A stretch of 64,000 nucleotides of DNA from Limosilactobacillus sp. (GTDB lineage Bacteria; Bacillota; Bacilli; Lactobacillales; Lactobacillaceae). Shown one piece after another: positions 47,686-55,371 of the stretch. A model generated the notes under the pieces. That model worked only from the letters and a program-made list of their open reading frames with translations. It had not been told where the DNA came from and did not search any database. The number at the start of each line of letters is the position of its first letter. Position 1 is the first letter of the stretch. The translations under genes were made by a program, and so were the position numbers. The stretch lies in NCBI RefSeq assembly GCF_022482365.1, contig NZ_JAKVPE010000001.1, forward strand, positions 1,550,001-1,614,000, in the 5' to 3' direction.

Positions 47686-49368
47686 ATGAAGAATACGCAT
47701 TGGTGGAAGAACGCGGTTGTCTATCAGATCTATCCAAAGTCGTTTCAGGACAGCAATGGCGATGGGATCGGTGACCTTCGGGGGATCATCAACCGACTGG
47801 ATTACTTGCAAAAGCTCGGCGTCGACATCGTCTGGCTGAACCCAATCTACGAGTCGCCCCAGGTGGACAACGGCTACGACATCAGCAACTACCAGGCGAT
47901 CAACCCGACTCTGGGATCGATGGCTGACTTCACCGCACTGTTGGACGGCCTGCACCAGCGGGGGATGAAGCTGGTCATGGACCTGGTCGTCAACCACACC
48001 TCCGATCAGCATCCCTGGTTTTTGGAGTCGCGCAAGAGCAAGGACAATCCTTACCGTGACTTTTACATTTGGCGCGATGGTCGGGATGGCCAGGCACCGA
48101 ATAACTGGGGCTCCTACTTCTCCGGCCCGGCCTGGAAGTATGATTCAAAGACTAACCAGTACTATCTGCACCTCTTTGCGCCCGAGCAGCCGGATTTGAA
48201 CTGGGAAAATCCGCAAGTTCGCCAGCGTGTTTTTGACATGATGAACTGGTGGGCTGACAAGGGTGTCGACGGCTTCCGGATGGACGTCATCAACTTGATT
48301 TCAAAGCCGGCGGGCCTGCCGGATGGGCCGCAGCGCACTGACGAGAAGTATGCCAACGTGGAGGGCTTTGTTCCCAACGGTCCCCGGGTTCACGAATACC
48401 TGCGGGAGATGAATCGGCAGGTCATGAGCAAGCACAAGATGGTCACGGTGGGCGAGACGCCCAACGTGACGCCCGCCGATGCGAAGAAGTACGCCGACCT
48501 GCACAACCAGGAGCTCAACATGGTGTTCCAGTTTGAGCACATGAACCTCGATGCCAACCCGAACCCGGCCCTCACCAAGTGGAACGACCAGAAGCCCCGC
48601 CTGGCCGATCTGCGGGCCAACCTGACCAAGTGGCAGGCGGAATTGGCTGGTCAGGCCTGGAACGCCCTTTACTGGAACAATCACGACCAGCCCCGGGTGG
48701 TTTCCCGCTTTGGGGATGACTCGACTGAGGATTACCGGGTCAAGTCGGCCAAGATGCTGGCGACGATGACCCACTTCATGCAGGGGACCCCCTACATTTA
48801 CGAGGGGGAGGAAATCGGCATGACCAACGCCGGTTTCACCAAGCTTGATGATTATGTCGACCTGGAATCACGCAATGCCTACCGCCAGCTGGTCGAGGAG
48901 CAGCACCTGCTTGACGGTCCGACGATGTTGAAGTACCTGGCAATGCACTCACGGGATAATGCCCGGACACCGATGCAGTGGAACGACCAGCGCTACGCCG
49001 GCTTTTCCACCCATCAGCCCTGGGAGAAGCTGGCTGGCAACTATCGGCAGATCAACGTGGCCCAGGCCCTGGCCGACCCGAACTCGGTCTTTTACTACTA
49101 CCAAAAGCTGATCAAGCTCCGCCACGCCCTGCCGGTGATTACCGACGGCCGTTATGCGCTGGTAGCGGGTAATGATTCTGACGAGCAGGTCTTTGCCTAT
49201 ACCCGGCAGGACAAGGAAACTACCCTGCTGGTCATTCTGAACTACACGGCCCAAACCGTCAGTCGTCATTATGCCGTGCCGGACACGGCCAAATTGCTGA
49301 TCAGCAACTACGCTGACGACCAGGGGGACACAATCCGGCCGTACGAGGCGAAGGTTTACCAATATTAA
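47686..49368 (+). CDS. Alpha-glucosidase, oligo-1,6-glucosidase type (GH13)
   Basis: 560 residues. GH13 regions: DLVVNHTSDQH, DGFRMDVINLI (nucleophile Asp near 199), VGETPNV (acid Glu), and NNHDQPR. The sequence order and length fit GH13 subfamily 31 (oligo-1,6-glucosidase, isomaltase, or sucrose/dextran glucosidase). No signal peptide, so it works on imported oligosaccharides. It has CGAAAGGAC before ATG 47686, after the terminator of the glycosyltransferases, so its own promoter is either inside that region or readthrough is used. Linkage specificity cannot be assigned. Confidence 0.88.
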   Translation: MKNTHWWKNAVVYQIYPKSFQDSNGDGIGDLRGIINRLDYLQKLGVDIVWLNPIYESPQVDNGYDISNYQAINPTLGSMADFTALLDGLHQRGMKLVMDLVVNHTSDQHPWFLESRKSKDNPYRDFYIWRDGRDGQAPNNWGSYFSGPAWKYDSKTNQYYLHLFAPEQPDLNWENPQVRQRVFDMMNWWADKGVDGFRMDVINLISKPAGLPDGPQRTDEKYANVEGFVPNGPRVHEYLREMNRQVMSKHKMVTVGETPNVTPADAKKYADLHNQELNMVFQFEHMNLDANPNPALTKWNDQKPRLADLRANLTKWQAELAGQAWNALYWNNHDQPRVVSRFGDDSTEDYRVKSAKMLATMTHFMQGTPYIYEGEEIGMTNAGFTKLDDYVDLESRNAYRQLVEEQHLLDGPTMLKYLAMHSRDNARTPMQWNDQRYAGFSTHQPWEKLAGNYRQINVAQALADPNSVFYYYQKLIKLRHALPVITDGRYALVAGNDSDEQVFAYTRQDKETTLLVILNYTAQTVSRHYAVPDTAKLLISNYADDQGDTIRPYEAKVYQY

Positions 49369-49375
49369 GATGCAA

Positions 49376-49410
49376 AAAAACGTTCTGACGCAGGCAATCA
49401 GAACGTTTTT
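49376..49410. terminator. Bidirectional terminator
   Basis: AAAAACGTTCTGA pairs perfectly with TCAGAACGTTTTT between convergent genes. Confidence 0.9.
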
Positions 49411-49415
49411 GTATT

Positions 49416-49787
49416 TCATTCCCAATAATCCTCAAACTTGCTCGAGGCACCGGTGACCGCGTCCACATCCTGGGTGCTTGACGGGTCCTGACCCTCGTAG
49501 CGGAAGCGGAAGACGATTTTCTGAGCGGCCGGGTCCAGGTCGACCGTGGTCGTCAGGCCGGAGAAGAACCAGCCATCGCTGAAATTGATGTGGTAGTTGA
49601 CGCCATCTCTTTTCACCGTCAGTGCTGAATTTGTCAGGTCATCTTCCCGGGCAAATCCCTGGTGTGGACCGTGCTGAACGTGGTGGGGCTGGGTCGTCTT
49701 GCCGAAGAACCTGACCCCAGCACCTGCTTGGAGATTAAAGTGTTGCCGAAACCACTGGTCGGCGGCAGCGGTGATGATTAGCTGCAC
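49416..49787 (-). CDS. HesB/YneR-like protein with a C-terminal flavinylation-type motif
   Basis: 123 residues. The body (LIITAAADQWFRQHF, VRFFGK, DGVNYHINFSDGWFF) follows the HesB/IscA-like YneR family of lactobacilli. It contains no cysteine, so it cannot bind iron-sulphur clusters in the IscA way. The C-terminal extension has D109-A-V-T112-G-A-S115, the Dxx[ST]GA[TS] pattern on which ApbE places FMN through the Thr. An ApbE gene lies 3.5 kb away. It is 34 nt downstream of the rlmD-type gene on the same strand, with GGAGGGAG as ribosome site. Flavinylation is inference. Confidence 0.7.
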   Translation of the reverse strand: MQLIITAAADQWFRQHFNLQAGAGVRFFGKTTQPHHVQHGPHQGFAREDDLTNSALTVKRDGVNYHINFSDGWFFSGLTTTVDLDPAAQKIVFRFRYEGQDPSSTQDVDAVTGASSKFEDYWE

Positions 49788-49821
49788 GGGTGCTCCCTCC
49801 TTTCTAAGTCAAGGCATGACC

Positions 49822-51225
49822 TTACTTTTGGGCTTCCCGCAGTGAGAGCTTGACGACGGCCTCGCACCGGGCGGTCTGCGGCATCATATCGATCGGTTGG
49901 ATATAGTCCACGTGGTAGACGCTGGTCAGCCGGCGCAGGTTGCGGGCCAAGGAAGCCATCCCGCAGGAAACGTAGACGAACTTCTTTGGCTTGGCGGCGA
50001 GGATTGCCTTGATTAATCCCTCGTCGAGCCCGGCCCGTGGCGGATCGACGACCAACGCGTCAAAGTGCAGGCCATCATGTTCCCACTGGGGCATCAGGTC
50101 TTCCGCCTTGCCGACCTCATAGTGAGCGTTGGTAATCCCGTTGCGCTCGGCATTGGCGTTGGCATCGGCGACCGCCTCGGGGATGATTTCCATCCCCCGG
50201 ACCGTCTTGACCCGGGAGGCCAGGGAAAGCCCAATCGTCCCGATCCCGGCGTAGGCGTCGATCAGGGTGTCGTCGGGCGACAGTTCCAGGGCCGTGGCCG
50301 CCTCCTCATAGAGGGTTTCGGTCTGTTCCGGGTTGAGCTGCAAGAAGGAGCGGGCGGACAGGTTAAAGTCCAGGCCCATCAGGCTCTCGGTGATCGTTTC
50401 CTTGCCGGCCAGGTGAATCATCTGGTCACCCCAGACCAGCGGGGTATCGCCGGGGTTGACGTTTTGCATGACTGAGACCACCTCGGGCAGCTGATCATGG
50501 ATGGCCTCCAGGAGCTGGCGCTTGTGGATTAGCTTCGGGGTATTGGTGATGAAGGTCAGCTGGAGTTCTCCAGTGGCCCAGGATTCGCGCACGACCAGGG
50601 TCTTGATGATCCCACTGTTGGCCTTTTCGTCATAAACGGGGATTTGGAGCTGTTCAATCAGCTGCACGACGGTCCGGATAACCTTCATGGTGTGGGGCAT
50701 CTGGACGGCGCACTCTTCCATGTCAACCAGGTCGTGGCTGTCGGGCTTGTAGAGCCCAGCGGCAACGTGGCCGTCAATCATTCGCACTTGGAACTGGGCC
50801 TTGTTGCGGTAGCCATACTCGGCCGGTGCCGGAATCGTCGGCCGGACGTCGTAATTGCGATAACCGTAGGGCTGGAACTTGGCCAGGCTATCGATTACCA
50901 CCTGGCGCTTGAACTTTAATTGTTCCGAGTAGGCCAAATTTTCGAGTTCAAACCCGCCGGCCACGTCGGCATAGGCATCCCGGGGCTGGACCCGGTGCCG
51001 GCTGGCCTTGCGAAGACGATGGATCTTAGCCTCCAGGTAGCGGGGCATGACCTTCGTGACCTCGGCAACGACGATCTCGCCGGGCAGGGCGCCGGGGACG
51101 AAGCAGACCTTGTGCTTAAAGTAGCCGATCCCGTGACCGTTGACGCCGAGCCGCTTAATGCTCAGCGGGAAGCGGTCGCCAACGCTGACGGCGACGGAAG
51201 TAGTTGTTTGACTGTGTTTGTTCAT
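49822..51225 (-). CDS. 23S rRNA (uracil-5-)-methyltransferase, RlmD/RlmCD type
   Basis: 467 residues. An N-terminal TRAM-like domain (about 15-75) precedes the class I methyltransferase: SFLQLNPEQTETLY, DAYAGIGTIGLSLA (AdoMet), VVDPPRAGLD, and the catalytic Cys in VYVSCGMASLARNL. Firmicute members methylate U747 and/or U1939 of 23S rRNA. The four-cysteine iron-sulphur site of E. coli RlmD is not present. Followed by the HesB-like gene in one transcript. Confidence 0.88.
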   Translation of the reverse strand: MNKHSQTTTSVAVSVGDRFPLSIKRLGVNGHGIGYFKHKVCFVPGALPGEIVVAEVTKVMPRYLEAKIHRLRKASRHRVQPRDAYADVAGGFELENLAYSEQLKFKRQVVIDSLAKFQPYGYRNYDVRPTIPAPAEYGYRNKAQFQVRMIDGHVAAGLYKPDSHDLVDMEECAVQMPHTMKVIRTVVQLIEQLQIPVYDEKANSGIIKTLVVRESWATGELQLTFITNTPKLIHKRQLLEAIHDQLPEVVSVMQNVNPGDTPLVWGDQMIHLAGKETITESLMGLDFNLSARSFLQLNPEQTETLYEEAATALELSPDDTLIDAYAGIGTIGLSLASRVKTVRGMEIIPEAVADANANAERNGITNAHYEVGKAEDLMPQWEHDGLHFDALVVDPPRAGLDEGLIKAILAAKPKKFVYVSCGMASLARNLRRLTSVYHVDYIQPIDMMPQTARCEAVVKLSLREAQK

Positions 51226-51431
51226 GGTATTTCTCCGTTCTCTTGATGATGTGCCCCTATTTTAGCACAGACCGTTCACCATCCTCATTCTCACAGCTGC
51301 TTTTATAACCAAATACTTGCAAAATGCTTAATAAACCAAATATTTACTAATAATCCGTGTTGCTAACCGGCAAAATATAGTAGAATGGACCTGTGAAATG
51401 CTGCATAAATAATTGAAGGAAGTGACAGATC

Positions 51432-52034
51432 TTGAAGATTGCTGCAATTGCCGGTTCCAATGCCAACCATTCCTACAACCGGATGCTGCTGGAATTTATC
51501 GCCGACCAGTACCGGGACACGGATGAGGTCGACGTCATTGACATTCGCAAGGTACCGATGTTTAACGAAAACTACAAGGGGAAGGCGCCGGAAATCATCG
51601 CCGACCTGGATCAACGGGTCAACGCGGCTGACGCGGTCATTATCGCTAGCCCCGAATACAACCACTCGATCACCTCAGCCCTAAAGAGCGTGGTGGAATG
51701 GATGTCATACGAGGTACACCCGCTGGAAAACAAGCCGGTCCTAATCGTGGGTGCATCCACCCATGAGCAGGGCTCGTCCCGTTCCCAGGTTCAGCTCCGG
51801 GACATCCTGATTTCACCGGGAGTGAACGCCCAGGTTTACCAGGGAAATGAGTTTTTCATGAGTGACGCGGCCAATGTCATCGATGAGGATGGCAAGATCA
51901 ACGATGAGATGACGGTCAAGTTCCTCGACAAGTGCATTGACGACTTTAAGGTTTACGCCCGGGCAATCAACAAGATGGTTGCGGACCAGGCAACGGCCGC
52001 AGAGGACCAGAAGGAGGCGGCAAAGGACAAATGA
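51432..52034 (+). CDS. NAD(P)H-dependent FMN reductase-like flavoprotein 1
   Basis: 200 residues from TTG 51432 (AAGGAAGTG before it), the only start giving the canonical MKIAAIAGSNANHSYNR phosphate-binding N-terminus. SPEYNHSITSALKSVVEWM is the flavin ring loop of the FMN_red family. Such enzymes reduce FMN, quinones or azo dyes with NAD(P)H in the cytosol. The C-terminal 25 residues are charged (Ala/Glu/Lys/Asp). It overlaps the start of the next gene (ATGA) and belongs to the three-gene flavin operon ending with apbE. It has no flavinylation motif itself. Confidence 0.85.
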   Translation: MKIAAIAGSNANHSYNRMLLEFIADQYRDTDEVDVIDIRKVPMFNENYKGKAPEIIADLDQRVNAADAVIIASPEYNHSITSALKSVVEWMSYEVHPLENKPVLIVGASTHEQGSSRSQVQLRDILISPGVNAQVYQGNEFFMSDAANVIDEDGKINDEMTVKFLDKCIDDFKVYARAINKMVADQATAAEDQKEAAKDK

Positions 52035-53278
52035 TGAAGATCTTAGCGTTAGTTGGGACGAATGCCAACTTTTCTTACAACCGTTTACTGCTGAAGTTCA
52101 TGAAGAAGCACTTCAAGCAGATGGCGGACATCGAGCTCTACGAAATCAGCAAGCTGCCACCGTTTGGGGTTGACGTGCCGCTAGAAGAGCAAACCGAGGT
52201 TTGGAAGCTCAAGCAGAAAGTCAAGGCGGCCGACGGGGTGATCTTCTCCACGCCGGAATACGACCACGGCATTCCGGCCGCCCTGAAGAGTGCCGTTGAA
52301 TGGCTGTCCTACCACACCAAGGTGCTTGACCGCAAGCCAGTGATGGTCGTGGGAGTTTCCTACGGTCGCCAGGCTTCGGCGCGCTCCCAAGTGCAGATGC
52401 GCCAGATCCTGATTTCCCCAGACTGCAACACCAACCTGCTCCCCGGCAACGAGGTGCTGATCGGTGGCGCCACCCACGTCTTTTCCGAGGACGGTCGGCT
52501 GATCGATCCGGGAATGCGGGACAACCTGGAAAAATGCTTTACCAATTTTATTGAATACATTCAAGTCTTTCAACACGTGGACGAGGAGGAAGTAACGATG
52601 CCGATCAAGCAACCAAGTATTAGCGATGCCTATATCAAGTTTCCAACCGGACGGCTGTCCTTAAAGGAGGTCCAGCAGATCTTCAGTACGATTCCGTTCG
52701 AGATTGACCTCATCGACAGCTCCGACAACTTCAGCTGGTTCTCGGACAAGCCAAACCGGGAGCACGTTCGGGACGTGGCTTCGCTGAACGAACCGGTAAC
52801 GGAATGCCACCCACCGAAGGCCGTTCCGGGGGTCATGAGCATCATCAACAGCTTCCGGGATGGCAAGCGCGACGTTGTGACCCGGCCGCTGTGGATGCAC
52901 GGTCACCGCTCCCTGATCCAATACTACGCCCTGCGTGACGTTGATGGTCACTACCTCGGTACCATCGAATTCACCGGGAACGTGGAATACATCCTCAACC
53001 TCTTTGAAAATGGGGCTTGGGACAAGGGTGCCGATGCCACGACCGGTGCTTCTAAGCACGAAGCTTCCGCGGAGACCGCTGCCGCTCCGGTCACCGAAAC
53101 CGCGGATGCCACGACCGGTGCCTCCGAATCCAGCGACGAGGGTGCCGATGAAACGGCAACTGACCCGGACGTGGCCGCGGATGATGACGCCGACGCCTCC
53201 ACCGGCGCTTCCGAATCCGGTAGCGTGGACGCCGACGATGAAGCCGCGGACGCCACGACCGGTGCTTCCGAAAACTAA
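52031..53278 (+). CDS. Multidomain flavoprotein with four ApbE-type flavinylation motifs
   Basis: 415 residues. Domain 1 (1-190) is a second FMN_red-type flavodoxin fold (LALVGTNANFSYNR; STPEYDHGIPAALKSAVEWL). Domain 2 (about 200-325) resembles the PAS-like part of DUF438 proteins (FPTGRLSLKEVQQIFSTIPF, NFSWFSDKPN, SLIQYYALRDVDGHYLGTIEF). The Ala/Asp/Glu/Thr-rich tail (330-415) carries four motifs: DATTGAS at 335, 359 and 407 and DASTGAS at 388, with acceptor Thr 338, 362, 391 and 410. ApbE transfers FMN to this Thr in other proteins. apbE starts 5 nt downstream. No signal peptide, so it is expected in the cytosol and could carry up to four covalent FMNs plus bound FMN. Confidence 0.82.
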   Translation: MMKILALVGTNANFSYNRLLLKFMKKHFKQMADIELYEISKLPPFGVDVPLEEQTEVWKLKQKVKAADGVIFSTPEYDHGIPAALKSAVEWLSYHTKVLDRKPVMVVGVSYGRQASARSQVQMRQILISPDCNTNLLPGNEVLIGGATHVFSEDGRLIDPGMRDNLEKCFTNFIEYIQVFQHVDEEEVTMPIKQPSISDAYIKFPTGRLSLKEVQQIFSTIPFEIDLIDSSDNFSWFSDKPNREHVRDVASLNEPVTECHPPKAVPGVMSIINSFRDGKRDVVTRPLWMHGHRSLIQYYALRDVDGHYLGTIEFTGNVEYILNLFENGAWDKGADATTGASKHEASAETAAAPVTETADATTGASESSDEGADETATDPDVAADDDADASTGASESGSVDADDEAADATTGASEN

Positions 53279-53283
53279 GCACC

Positions 53284-54213
53284 ATGGCTGTGAATGAGCA
53301 ATTGGCCAGCCAGGTCCATTCGCTGACCCACCACGCTCTGGGGACGCGGATCGTGCTGACGGTCTTTGGGGACCAGTTTTGCGACCTGCTCCAGTCATCG
53401 ATGGACCTGATCGACGGCTTTGAGGACCGACTGACGGTCAACCGGGACCAGTCGGAGGTGATGGACGTCAACCACGCCGCCGGACAGGGAGCCCGGGTGG
53501 TGTCGCCTTCGACCTATGACCTGATTAAAATGGCGGTGCACTACAGCCGGGAGAATTTCGGCTTTAACGCCCTGATCGGCCCCCTGGTGAAGCTTTGGAA
53601 GATCGGCTTTCAAGGTGCCAACGTGCCGGCGGACCGGGACATTCAGGAACGCCTGCAGTTAATTGACCCCTTCCAGGTTGAACTCGACGACACCCGTCGG
53701 TCCGTTTACCTTAGGCAGGCGGGGATGGAACTGGACCTCGGCGGGATTGCCAAGGGTTACATTGCCGATCAGGTCCGCGCCTTTTGGGAAGCCCATGGGG
53801 TGACGGCAGGGATCATCAACCTCGGGGGCAACCTGGTCATGGTTGGTTCCTCTCCCCGGCGTGCGGACGGTCAGTGGAACATTGGCGTCCAGGACCCGCA
53901 GCTGCACCGCGGCGAAAACATGGAGATTGTCCGTCAGCCGGCCTGCTCGGCGGTGACGTCGGGCATCTACGAACGGTTCCTAATTAAAGATGGGCACCGC
54001 TACCACCACCTGATTGATCCGCGGACGGGTTACCCGCTGAAAACCGACCTCAGCAGCGTGACCGTCTTTACCGACCAGTCGGTGCTGGGGGAGATCGAGG
54101 CCAAGCGTCTCTTCTTCAACGGCCGGCCAATTCCCGGCTGGCTGCACCGCCCCGGCAACCGGGCAGCGGTCTTCATTCATAATGACGAACACGTGGAAAA
54201 CGTGGGAATTTAA
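53284..54213 (+). CDS. apbE: FAD:protein FMN transferase (ApbE), without signal peptide
   Basis: 309 residues. ALGTRIVLTVFG at the start, MELDLGGIAKGYIADQ, LGGNLVMVG and HLIDPRTGYPL are ApbE signatures (FAD binding and Mg site). It moves FMN from FAD onto Thr of Dxx[ST]GA[TS] motifs. Most ApbE proteins are lipoproteins; this one lacks any signal peptide or lipobox and should be cytosolic. It begins 5 nt after the stop of a protein with four such motifs and has no strong own ribosome site, implying translational coupling. The substrate assignment follows from this context. Confidence 0.9.
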   Translation: MAVNEQLASQVHSLTHHALGTRIVLTVFGDQFCDLLQSSMDLIDGFEDRLTVNRDQSEVMDVNHAAGQGARVVSPSTYDLIKMAVHYSRENFGFNALIGPLVKLWKIGFQGANVPADRDIQERLQLIDPFQVELDDTRRSVYLRQAGMELDLGGIAKGYIADQVRAFWEAHGVTAGIINLGGNLVMVGSSPRRADGQWNIGVQDPQLHRGENMEIVRQPACSAVTSGIYERFLIKDGHRYHHLIDPRTGYPLKTDLSSVTVFTDQSVLGEIEAKRLFFNGRPIPGWLHRPGNRAAVFIHNDEHVENVGI

Positions 54214-54217
54214 CGAC

Positions 54218-54264
54218 AAAACGGGGCACTGAATCCATTTGACTGGTTCAGTGCCCCGTTTTTA
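54218..54264. terminator. Bidirectional terminator after apbE
   Basis: AAACGGGGCACTGAA pairs with TTCAGTGCCCCGTTT; T-tracts on both strands. Confidence 0.9.
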
Positions 54265-54273
54265 ATGATTGAA

Positions 54274-55041
54274 TTATTCTTCTTCGTTCCAATCCAGGGC
54301 GAGTCCCTGCTGTTGAAGAGCAACTGGCAGCTTGTCCCGACTGCTTTCCTGACGGTCCAGCTTTGGTCCGCAGATTTGATGGGTAAAGGAGTCGATCCGC
54401 CGATTAGCGTCACGCAGGTCGTAGTACTGGGTCACCTCAGCATCATAGTCCTTGAGGTCGCTGGCGTGAAAGTCGCGATTGTAGTCATTTTCAAAGACCA
54501 GCTGGTCGAGTGGCAGCCGAGGCTTTAATTGCGGCTCCTGATCCGGAATGCCGACCTGGAGGCCCAGCAGCGGGAAGACCATCTTCGGCAGGTCGAGGAT
54601 CTTAACCAGCTCGACCGGATCATTCTTGATTGAACCAAGGATCACGCCGCCCAGTCCCATGCTTTCGGCGGCGACCAGGGTGTTTTGGACGGCCAATACG
54701 GTGTCTTCGACGGCCTGCTGGAAGACGTCGGCGGTGTGCAGGCGGCCGTCGTCCTTCCCGTTGTCCTGGCGAATTCGTTGGTTGCGGAAAATGTCGACCA
54801 GGAAGATCAGGAGGTCGCCGTTCTTGCCGATGTAGGGTTGCTTGCCCAGCTGGCGAATCGCGGCCCTTTTCTTTTCATCGGTCACGTGAAGGATGCTGAA
54901 CTCCTGCCAGTAGTTGCTGGTCGAAGTGTGGCGGGCAACCTCGTACAGGGTGGTCAGCTGCTCTTGGCTGAGCGCTTGTGGCTTGAACGCCCGAATTGAG
55001 CGGTGGTTGAGTTGGTGGTCAATGGTGGAATTATGAATCAT
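54274..55041 (-). CDS. NfsA-like nitroreductase
   Basis: 255 residues. N-terminal HRSIRAFKPQALSQEQL is the FMN-binding start of the nitroreductase fold; ESMGLGGVILGSIKNDP and LLGLQVGIPDQ are further family motifs, giving the NfsA/FRP-type layout. It reduces nitro compounds, flavins or quinones with NAD(P)H using bound FMN. Convergent with the flavin operon, forming a small redox island. GGAGGCC ribosome site. Substrate unknown. Confidence 0.85.
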   Translation of the reverse strand: MIHNSTIDHQLNHRSIRAFKPQALSQEQLTTLYEVARHTSTSNYWQEFSILHVTDEKKRAAIRQLGKQPYIGKNGDLLIFLVDIFRNQRIRQDNGKDDGRLHTADVFQQAVEDTVLAVQNTLVAAESMGLGGVILGSIKNDPVELVKILDLPKMVFPLLGLQVGIPDQEPQLKPRLPLDQLVFENDYNRDFHASDLKDYDAEVTQYYDLRDANRRIDSFTHQICGPKLDRQESSRDKLPVALQQQGLALDWNEEE

Positions 55042-55116
55042 AAAAAGGCCTCCTTACTAGATTTAACTTTATTATGGGCAGTATTTCCCGGGAAATGCAA
55101 ATTTGGTTTCCCCTTG

Positions 55117-55371
55117 TTGCTAAAATGAACAGGATGTAATATGATAGTGGCAATAAGAAACACGAATGCATTTCAAGTAGATCGTCCAGAGAGGCCGCGG
55201 CTGGTGTGAGCGGTTGATCGAAACTCCGGTGCAGGTAAATGTGGGCGGGTAATGCCGCACGGTTGGTAGCCGTTATCTACCACGAGGGTGACAATTTTGT
55301 CAAACTTGGGTGGTACCGCGGAACTAAGAGCCATTTCGTCCCAAAATATTGGAGACGAAATGGCTCTTTTT
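55117..55371 (+). promoter_or_regulatory. T-box riboswitch (serine) with promoter
   Basis: Promoter TTGCTA (55117-55122), 17 bp, TATGAT (55140-55145). The leader has AGAGAG near 55189, the T-box sequence TGGGTGGTACCGCGG at 55307-55321, and a terminator GAGCCATTTCGTC (55328-55340) pairing with 55354-55366 plus TTTTT. TCC at 55225-55227 in GAAACTCCGG is a candidate Ser specifier codon. Uncharged tRNA-Ser would favour antitermination and serS expression. Confidence 0.9.

Follow-up and report, generated by a model that had tools for sequence, protein, structure and literature searches.

The tail of a soluble reductase poses the question taken up here. Within 64,000 nucleotides of Limosilactobacillus sp. 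(RefSeq assembly GCF_022482365.1, contig NZ_JAKVPE010000001.1, positions 1,550,001 to 1,614,000 of the forward strand; 'the window' hereafter means this whole stretch, which lies in a 2.34-Mb single-contig genome), an operon at 51432..54213 encodes two reductases of the FMN_red family and an ApbE, a predicted transferase of flavin mononucleotide (FMN) from flavin adenine dinucleotide (FAD) to protein. ApbE flavinylation has been studied mainly as a means of holding flavin on exported proteins: what might it do in the cytosol, and for how many proteins? The reading favoured here, which sequence comparison leads us to hold with a probability of roughly 60%, is that of a cytosolic module for flavinylation, serving a portable C-terminal flavin tag and built around an ApbE that probably acts in trans as well. 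The core of this is already known, tail flavinylation of FMN_red proteins beside apbE having been published in 2024 (in passages of PMC11334425); what is new is that the same tag stands at the end of two HesB/YneR-like proteins and of a stand-alone PAS_10 protein.

The operon and the tags on its reductase tail

All three genes are on the plus strand. The first, fmn1 (51432..52034, TTG start), encodes an untagged FMN_red protein of 200 residues (E 2.6e-35); fmn2 (52031..53278) encodes 415 residues, in which profile matches place an FMN_red domain at 2-147 (E 6.2e-32), a PAS_10 domain at 215-317 (E 6.5e-13) and a tagged tail at 327-415; and apbE (53284..54213) encodes 309 residues matching the ApbE family at E 1.3e-68 (231.9 bits against PF02424, cut-off 25.6) and the FmnB structure 7esa at E 3.9e-55. 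With an overlap of 4 bases between fmn1 and fmn2 and a gap of 5 bases before apbE, open reading frames and profile matches agree with the initial annotation of this DNA, which had described three overlapping or nearly overlapping genes for two FMN_red reductases and ApbE, a PAS-like middle domain in the second reductase, and no signal peptide. The last point is borne out by Kyte-Doolittle analysis and inspection of the N-terminal sequences, which reveal no hydrophobic N-terminus in fmn1, fmn2 or ApbE (best 19-residue means in the first 60 residues of 0.09, 0.63 and 1.09, respectively); by the same measure neither enzyme nor substrate has a signal peptide or lipidation of the extracytosolic type.

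The fmn2 tail, 89 residues from residue 327, contains 24 acidic residues and 2 lysines or arginines. Four spaced tags of the form D-A-[TS]-T-G-A-S can be read in its frame, as had been annotated: DATTGAS at D335-S341 (53033..53053), DATTGAS at D359-S365 (53105..53125), DASTGAS at D388-S394 (53192..53212) and DATTGAS at D407-S413 (53249..53269), all on the plus strand. The acceptors named initially, Thr 338, 362, 391 and 410, must be revised: because the residue that receives FMN is the final one in D-x-x-[ST]-G-A-[ST], according to passages of PMC12052999, the predicted acceptors are serines (Ser341, Ser365, Ser394 and Ser413) and not threonines. The same passages report that a seven-residue motif is enough for ApbE and that the enzyme favours Thr over Ser as acceptor.

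These tags are strongly conserved. A genome scan returned 19 loci, of which 18 belong to Limosilactobacillus or to metagenome-assembled genomes of lactobacilli (the 19th, from Yinghuangia, matches FMN_red distantly), and in 18/18 the three genes are adjacent, with four strict motifs in 15 operons, three in two and five in one. The search for repeated-motif FMN_red proteins beside apbE that had been proposed at the outset thus finds such pairs at every one of these loci, and loss of the tags in homologues that keep the operon is not seen. Among 120 homologues listed of 423, strict motifs number four in 92, three in 27 and two in one; the nearest named relative of the 415-residue protein in the scan is from Limosilactobacillus kribbianus (96%). 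Across 37 aligned homologues mean identity is 97.6% at the key tag positions (1, 4, 5, 6 and 7; 20 columns) against 58% in 61 tail-linker columns, a comparison of related sequences and not an independent test, and linker lengths vary. A GSVDA block before the last tag (53219-53233, residues 397-401), perhaps a docking site, is invariant in the same 37 homologues, most other linker positions being variable. FMN_bind (PF04205) is absent from the tagged protein, whose only matches are to FMN_red, PAS_10 and Flavodoxin_2, and across the whole genome a single match to ApbE and none to FMN_bind is found.

In the mechanism we infer, ApbE would take FAD and place FMN on the last serine of each D-A-[TS]-T-G-A-S tag, loading the tail with up to four covalent FMN. 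Electrons from NAD(P)H would reach the flavins of the tail by way of the two FMN_red domains, in which FMN is, as usual, bound non-covalently, and the PAS domain would be a docking or sensing partner. The tail may serve as the electron relay or redox sensor that the initial annotation had suggested.

Tagged proteins elsewhere in the genome

Four proteins of the genome have in-frame tags near their end, each terminating 2-8 residues past its last tag. A bare count of the motif tells little, since a pattern scan of the genome gives 28 DNA hits and its reversed control 21; end position, reading frame and conservation are what distinguish real tags. Matches in frame but inside longer frames (L003, L004, L009, L014 and L018) were set aside.

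Beside fmn2, the window holds a second tagged protein, on the minus strand, whose tag (the fifth of the window) the initial annotation had missed. This HesB/YneR-like protein (49416..49787) has 123 residues, no cysteine and a tagged tail reading DAVTGASSKFEDYWE; its tag, DAVTGAS (49443..49463, minus strand), has Ser115 as predicted acceptor. The gene starts 34 bases downstream of a methyltransferase gene and lies close to the operon in 4/18 loci, several of which are cut short. A second tagged HesB-like protein, of 130 residues (DASTGASQHQQK), is encoded on the minus strand about 706 kb into the genome (L049:7162-7554), beside genes read as greA and udk, and its DASTGAS is kept in relatives from many genomes with the same ApbE type (type I, below). 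The fourth protein is a stand-alone PAS_10 protein of 183 residues at about 1.186 Mb (L050:6554-7105, plus strand), which ends DATTGASKKDE and whose relatives end DGVSSASINENK and similar; it lies beside a gene read as hflX (greA and hflX are readings of translated neighbours, made without a family search). A third HesB-like protein ends in a degenerate tag, DSTTAASRDFEDFWE, and no tag was seen in a third PAS protein. In relatives, the HesB-like gene of G325 (L165) is broken into two frames, and the stand-alone PAS gene of G301 (L169) occupies two frames separated by about 2 kb.

The HesB-like proteins have a HesB/IscA-like core, recognised by fold comparison; sequence searches gave no convincing solved HesB relative. 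In A-type Fe-S carriers (IscA/SufA) conserved cysteines hold the cluster. The window protein has none and so falls outside that class, and cysteine is absent from 75/87 HesB open reading frames of the genus. A flavin tag would offer such cysteine-free proteins a testable job.

Since three further proteins of the genome terminate in this tag, cells may use flavinylation as a portable redox label in their interior as well as outside. The same ApbE would label in trans the singly tagged cytosolic proteins, two of HesB fold and one stand-alone PAS_10; the tail flavins would perhaps hand electrons on to these partners, so tying a number of soluble proteins to a single redox pool driven by NAD(P)H. 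The putative HesB-fold targets resemble YneR/PdhI of Bacillus subtilis, which inhibits the E1 component of pyruvate dehydrogenase; a connection with pyruvate metabolism is one that we infer. A bolder proposal is that in lactobacilli one ApbE labels unrelated soluble proteins in trans through a co-evolving C-terminal motif, YneR/PdhI-like ones included, and that by its covalent FMN a regulator of pyruvate dehydrogenase (or a novel small carrier of electrons) comes to respond to the NAD(P)H pool; we put it forward tentatively, at somewhat under even odds.

ApbE types and matching tags across lineages

ApbE was found in 47/50 genomes of the genus, at 53-100% identity to that of the window in 35 (here labelled type I) and at 40-46% in 12 (type II; both labels are our own). 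Cis tails, those of FMN_red(-PAS) proteins, were read in 19/35 type-I and 9/12 type-II genomes with a pattern allowing S, T, A, G or N at position 4, which is T in 71/75 motifs with type I and A in 34/37 with type II. HesB tails were read with any residue allowed at position 4, and two short pieces of the disrupted G325 gene were excluded; they have T there in 63/63 cases from type-I genomes, A (15), S (3) or G (2) in the 20 from type-II genomes, and T in 4/4 from genomes in which no ApbE was found. The two types, which seem to prefer different tags (D-x-x-T-G-A-S and D-x-x-A-[SG]-A-S), would be useful for orthogonal flavin labelling. As side observations, type-II lineages L171-L184 carry two to five copies of D-[AT]-x-A-[SG]-A-S, with a position 4 outside the published consensus, and FMN_bind has no match in 30/50 genomes of the genus, occurring as a small frame of 92-103 residues in 12 and in frames of 146-773 residues in others.

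That only the operon's own protein is flavinylated, with FMN anchoring the FMN_red cofactor, the extra tags being spares and the HesB tails no substrates, is unlikely. Passages of PMC11334425 do describe FMN_red flavinylation in Lactococcus at predicted sites near the FMN site, and apbE lies beside the tagged protein in all 18 loci; such an account nonetheless leaves unexplained why HesB tags track the ApbE type and the cis tail of their host. Nor does it explain three genomes (G308, G318 and G328) in which a type-II ApbE and HesB tails ending DTVASAS, DGISSAS or DTVAGAS coexist with no FMN_red-PAS protein (a weak FMN_red fragment occurs in G318) and no FMN_bind found, absences that are provisional because these genomes are 88, 92 and 86% complete.

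Tags that follow a PAS domain alone are likewise left unexplained. Twenty ApbE neighbourhoods from other genera were hand-picked, mainly for short and presumably signal-less frames; in 10 a tagged FMN_red-PAS or PAS protein lies nearby, and in three of these (G033, G249 and G235) the frame that ends in the tag encodes a PAS protein but no FMN_red, and the tag is therefore able to move together with the PAS domain. Plasmids from Lactococcus lactis, Lacticaseibacillus paracasei and Enterococcus faecium bear this three-gene set too, with PAS_10 and 2-3 tags, a few of which are degenerate; pGdh442 of L. lactis has the order apbE, FMN_red, then FMN_red with PAS_10 and two DATSGAS. Insertion sequence elements lie close to the plasmid operons in L. 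paracasei and E. faecium (plasmid loci L273, L274 and L275). FMN_red-headed proteins of 813-817 residues near apbE in L230 and L231 (genus g30) and L227 (g14) look like fumarate-reductase-type fusions, those of g30 having DAVSGAS near the end.

Outside the genus, HesB-like proteins of Lactobacillaceae mostly stop just after the core: judged by where the profile match ends, 2 of the 115 genomes listed are tailed and 113 untailed. Set against 15 Limosilactobacillus genomes counted as tailed, this gives a Fisher p of 0.012 with relatedness ignored. Sequences were read for 15 untailed loci and for a further 20 stretches, mostly doubtful ones, of which 19 proved untailed and one tailed (G024). A larger sample of 397 genomes, 194 with a HesB match, added two further tailed proteins among the matches listed, the scope of all these counts outside the genus. 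The four tails read DGTSGASQHA (G024), DGVSSASYHGE (G254), SDATSGASEH (G393) and two DTSTGAS (G409), and all four genomes have an ApbE, in open frames of 318-338 residues at 46-62% identity to that of the window. Position 4 of the cis tail agrees with the HesB tag in G024 (S in 2/4), G393 (S in 3/3) and G409 (T in 1/1), G254 having no cis tail for comparison. In G393 the HesB tail SDATSGASEH stands beside an FMN_red-PAS tail SDATSGASQH, and HesB is untailed in its same-genus relatives G011, G156, G358 and G367. With two Limosilactobacillus groups included, tag and cis tail agree in 5/5 lineages, which 2% of random draws reach (draws from 17 cis tails, majority residues entered by hand). A cytosolic tag grafted onto other folds several times, in the host's own variant, would call for a different role, that of wiring or sensing within the cell.

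Several observations nevertheless weigh against a portable tag with an ApbE acting in trans. On a HesB core tree, built with the tail removed, position 4 changed on two occasions, each together with a change of ApbE type (sign test p 0.5), too few events to reach significance; the large counts at this position therefore mostly reflect shared descent, and the small number of independent events among tagged HesB lineages is itself a ground for doubt. Some ApbE is also present in 81 of the 113 listed genomes outside the genus with untailed HesB, as flavinylation confined to the operon's own protein would allow, and in G337 HesB lacks a tail although the ApbE there is 62% identical to that of the window; on these counts the HesB tag is an option, not a rule. 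No HesB match was found in G331. Tails of the stand-alone PAS protein are strict in 4/13 genomes, and an AlphaFold model of the 415-residue protein (mean predicted local distance difference test score 51) gives its PAS domain and tail low confidence.

Further difficulties of this kind concern the tags themselves. Position 5 of the HesB tag is relaxed to G, S or A; it is G in only 48/63 type-I tails, and the strict consensus is kept in those 48, in 0/20 type-II tails and in 4/4 from genomes without a found ApbE. Only G-to-S tags occur in G247, G303 and G319. HesB tags persist where no ApbE was found, as DTVTGAS in G307 (93% complete) and also in G313 (66%) and G315 (75%). Relaxed position 5, degenerate tails in several genomes, the tag of G307 and the [FY]E-x-[YF]W ending that HesB-A tails conserve past the tag would all suit short docking or stability motifs free of flavin, tag-like by convergence or common origin. 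We consider this rather improbable: D1 and the final S/T are kept while the spacer varies, position 4 tracks the ApbE type in 83/83 HesB tails, and in another ApbE system a position-5 Gly-to-Ala change lowers labelling only to about half (passages of PMC12052999).

The enzyme, too, departs from the usual. The window ApbE has Glu270 and Lys274 where solved ApbE structures have Asp and Thr, the metal-binding pair near the C-terminus; the change of Asp to Glu is mild, that of Thr to Lys near this site is not, and the lysine adds to the doubts above. Among aligned cytosolic ApbE (39 of 55 rows) Glu replaces Asp in 39/39 and Lys replaces Thr in 20/39, all 20 from Limosilactobacillus. An altered ApbE in this lineage, with tags vestigial or serving another transfer reaction, is nonetheless very improbable given how well the operon, its enzyme (69-94% identical along the matched stretch across the conserved operons) and the tags are conserved, and given that other conserved blocks such as TSGIYER and YHHLIDP are retained. 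A portable flavin tag served in trans by the operon's ApbE remains the preferred reading.

Surroundings of the operon and comparison with known systems

Between the HesB-like gene and the operon lies a bystander, a gene of the tRNA_U5-meth_tr/TRAM methyltransferase type (49822..51225, minus strand, by profile match), divergent from the operon. Downstream of apbE, a 13-pair inverted repeat read by eye (54221-54233 with 54247-54259, plus strand) is followed by T and would make a terminator-like operon end at 54221..54259; the terminator scan, with a loop limit of 8 bases, omits it. A promoter scan gave 4 sites against a shuffle mean of 1.4, one weak site (9/12) lying upstream of fmn1, and Rfam at gathering scores found no RNA element in 49000-55300.

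The closest known system is that of Huang et al. (2024, mSystems), seen here in passages of PMC11334425 and its preprint PMC10979944, which reports flavin on the predicted residue of FMN_red proteins from L. lactis and L. taiwanensis. The Lactococcus proteins have an unstructured C-terminal extension with 1-2 motifs, lie beside apbE and were flavinylated in lysate; the results name the cognate apbE and the methods describe Listeria ApbE added to the lysate. Covalent FMN was suggested there as an anchor of the FMN_red cofactor. The window operon shares the features of that class, mainly found in Firmicutes: an FMN_red fold, an unstructured extension with D-x-x-[ST]-G-A-[ST] and a nearby apbE. 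It is the Lactococcus plasmid match that would tie the window to this work, the plasmid protein being 33% identical to that of the window. The window family differs in having 3-5 tags where the Lactococcus proteins have 1-2, and in the tags on HesB-like and stand-alone PAS_10 proteins. 'HesB' is absent from the text of PMC11334425 as available, and the paper is not among literature matches for 'PAS domain'; nor do the accessible portions of open-licence PubMed Central, the apbE passage of PMC13132842 included, report tagged HesB-like or PAS_10 proteins. Literature pairing ApbE with HesB consists, in the parts available, of iron-response studies, and that pairing flavinylation with PAS domains of flavoprotein engineering.

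The cytosolic ApbE of Klebsiella pneumoniae, as described in passages of PMC12052999, is likewise a signal-less enzyme with a cytosolic target; its substrate is a soluble fumarate reductase, whereas the window's own genome has no FMN_bind match. With multi-flavinylated extracytosolic proteins (portions of PMC8238504 and PMC10339131) the fmn2 product would share several covalent FMN on one polypeptide, here predicted. Those proteins are exported and carry folded FMN-binding domains (passages of PMC11334425), in contrast to the bare seven-residue tags on a cytosolic tail. The likeness of the HesB-like proteins to YneR/PdhI is one of fold comparison only: inhibition of pyruvate dehydrogenase has been shown for YneR alone (portions of PMC10090944), and YneR is untagged, since its matched chain of 95 residues ends with the core.

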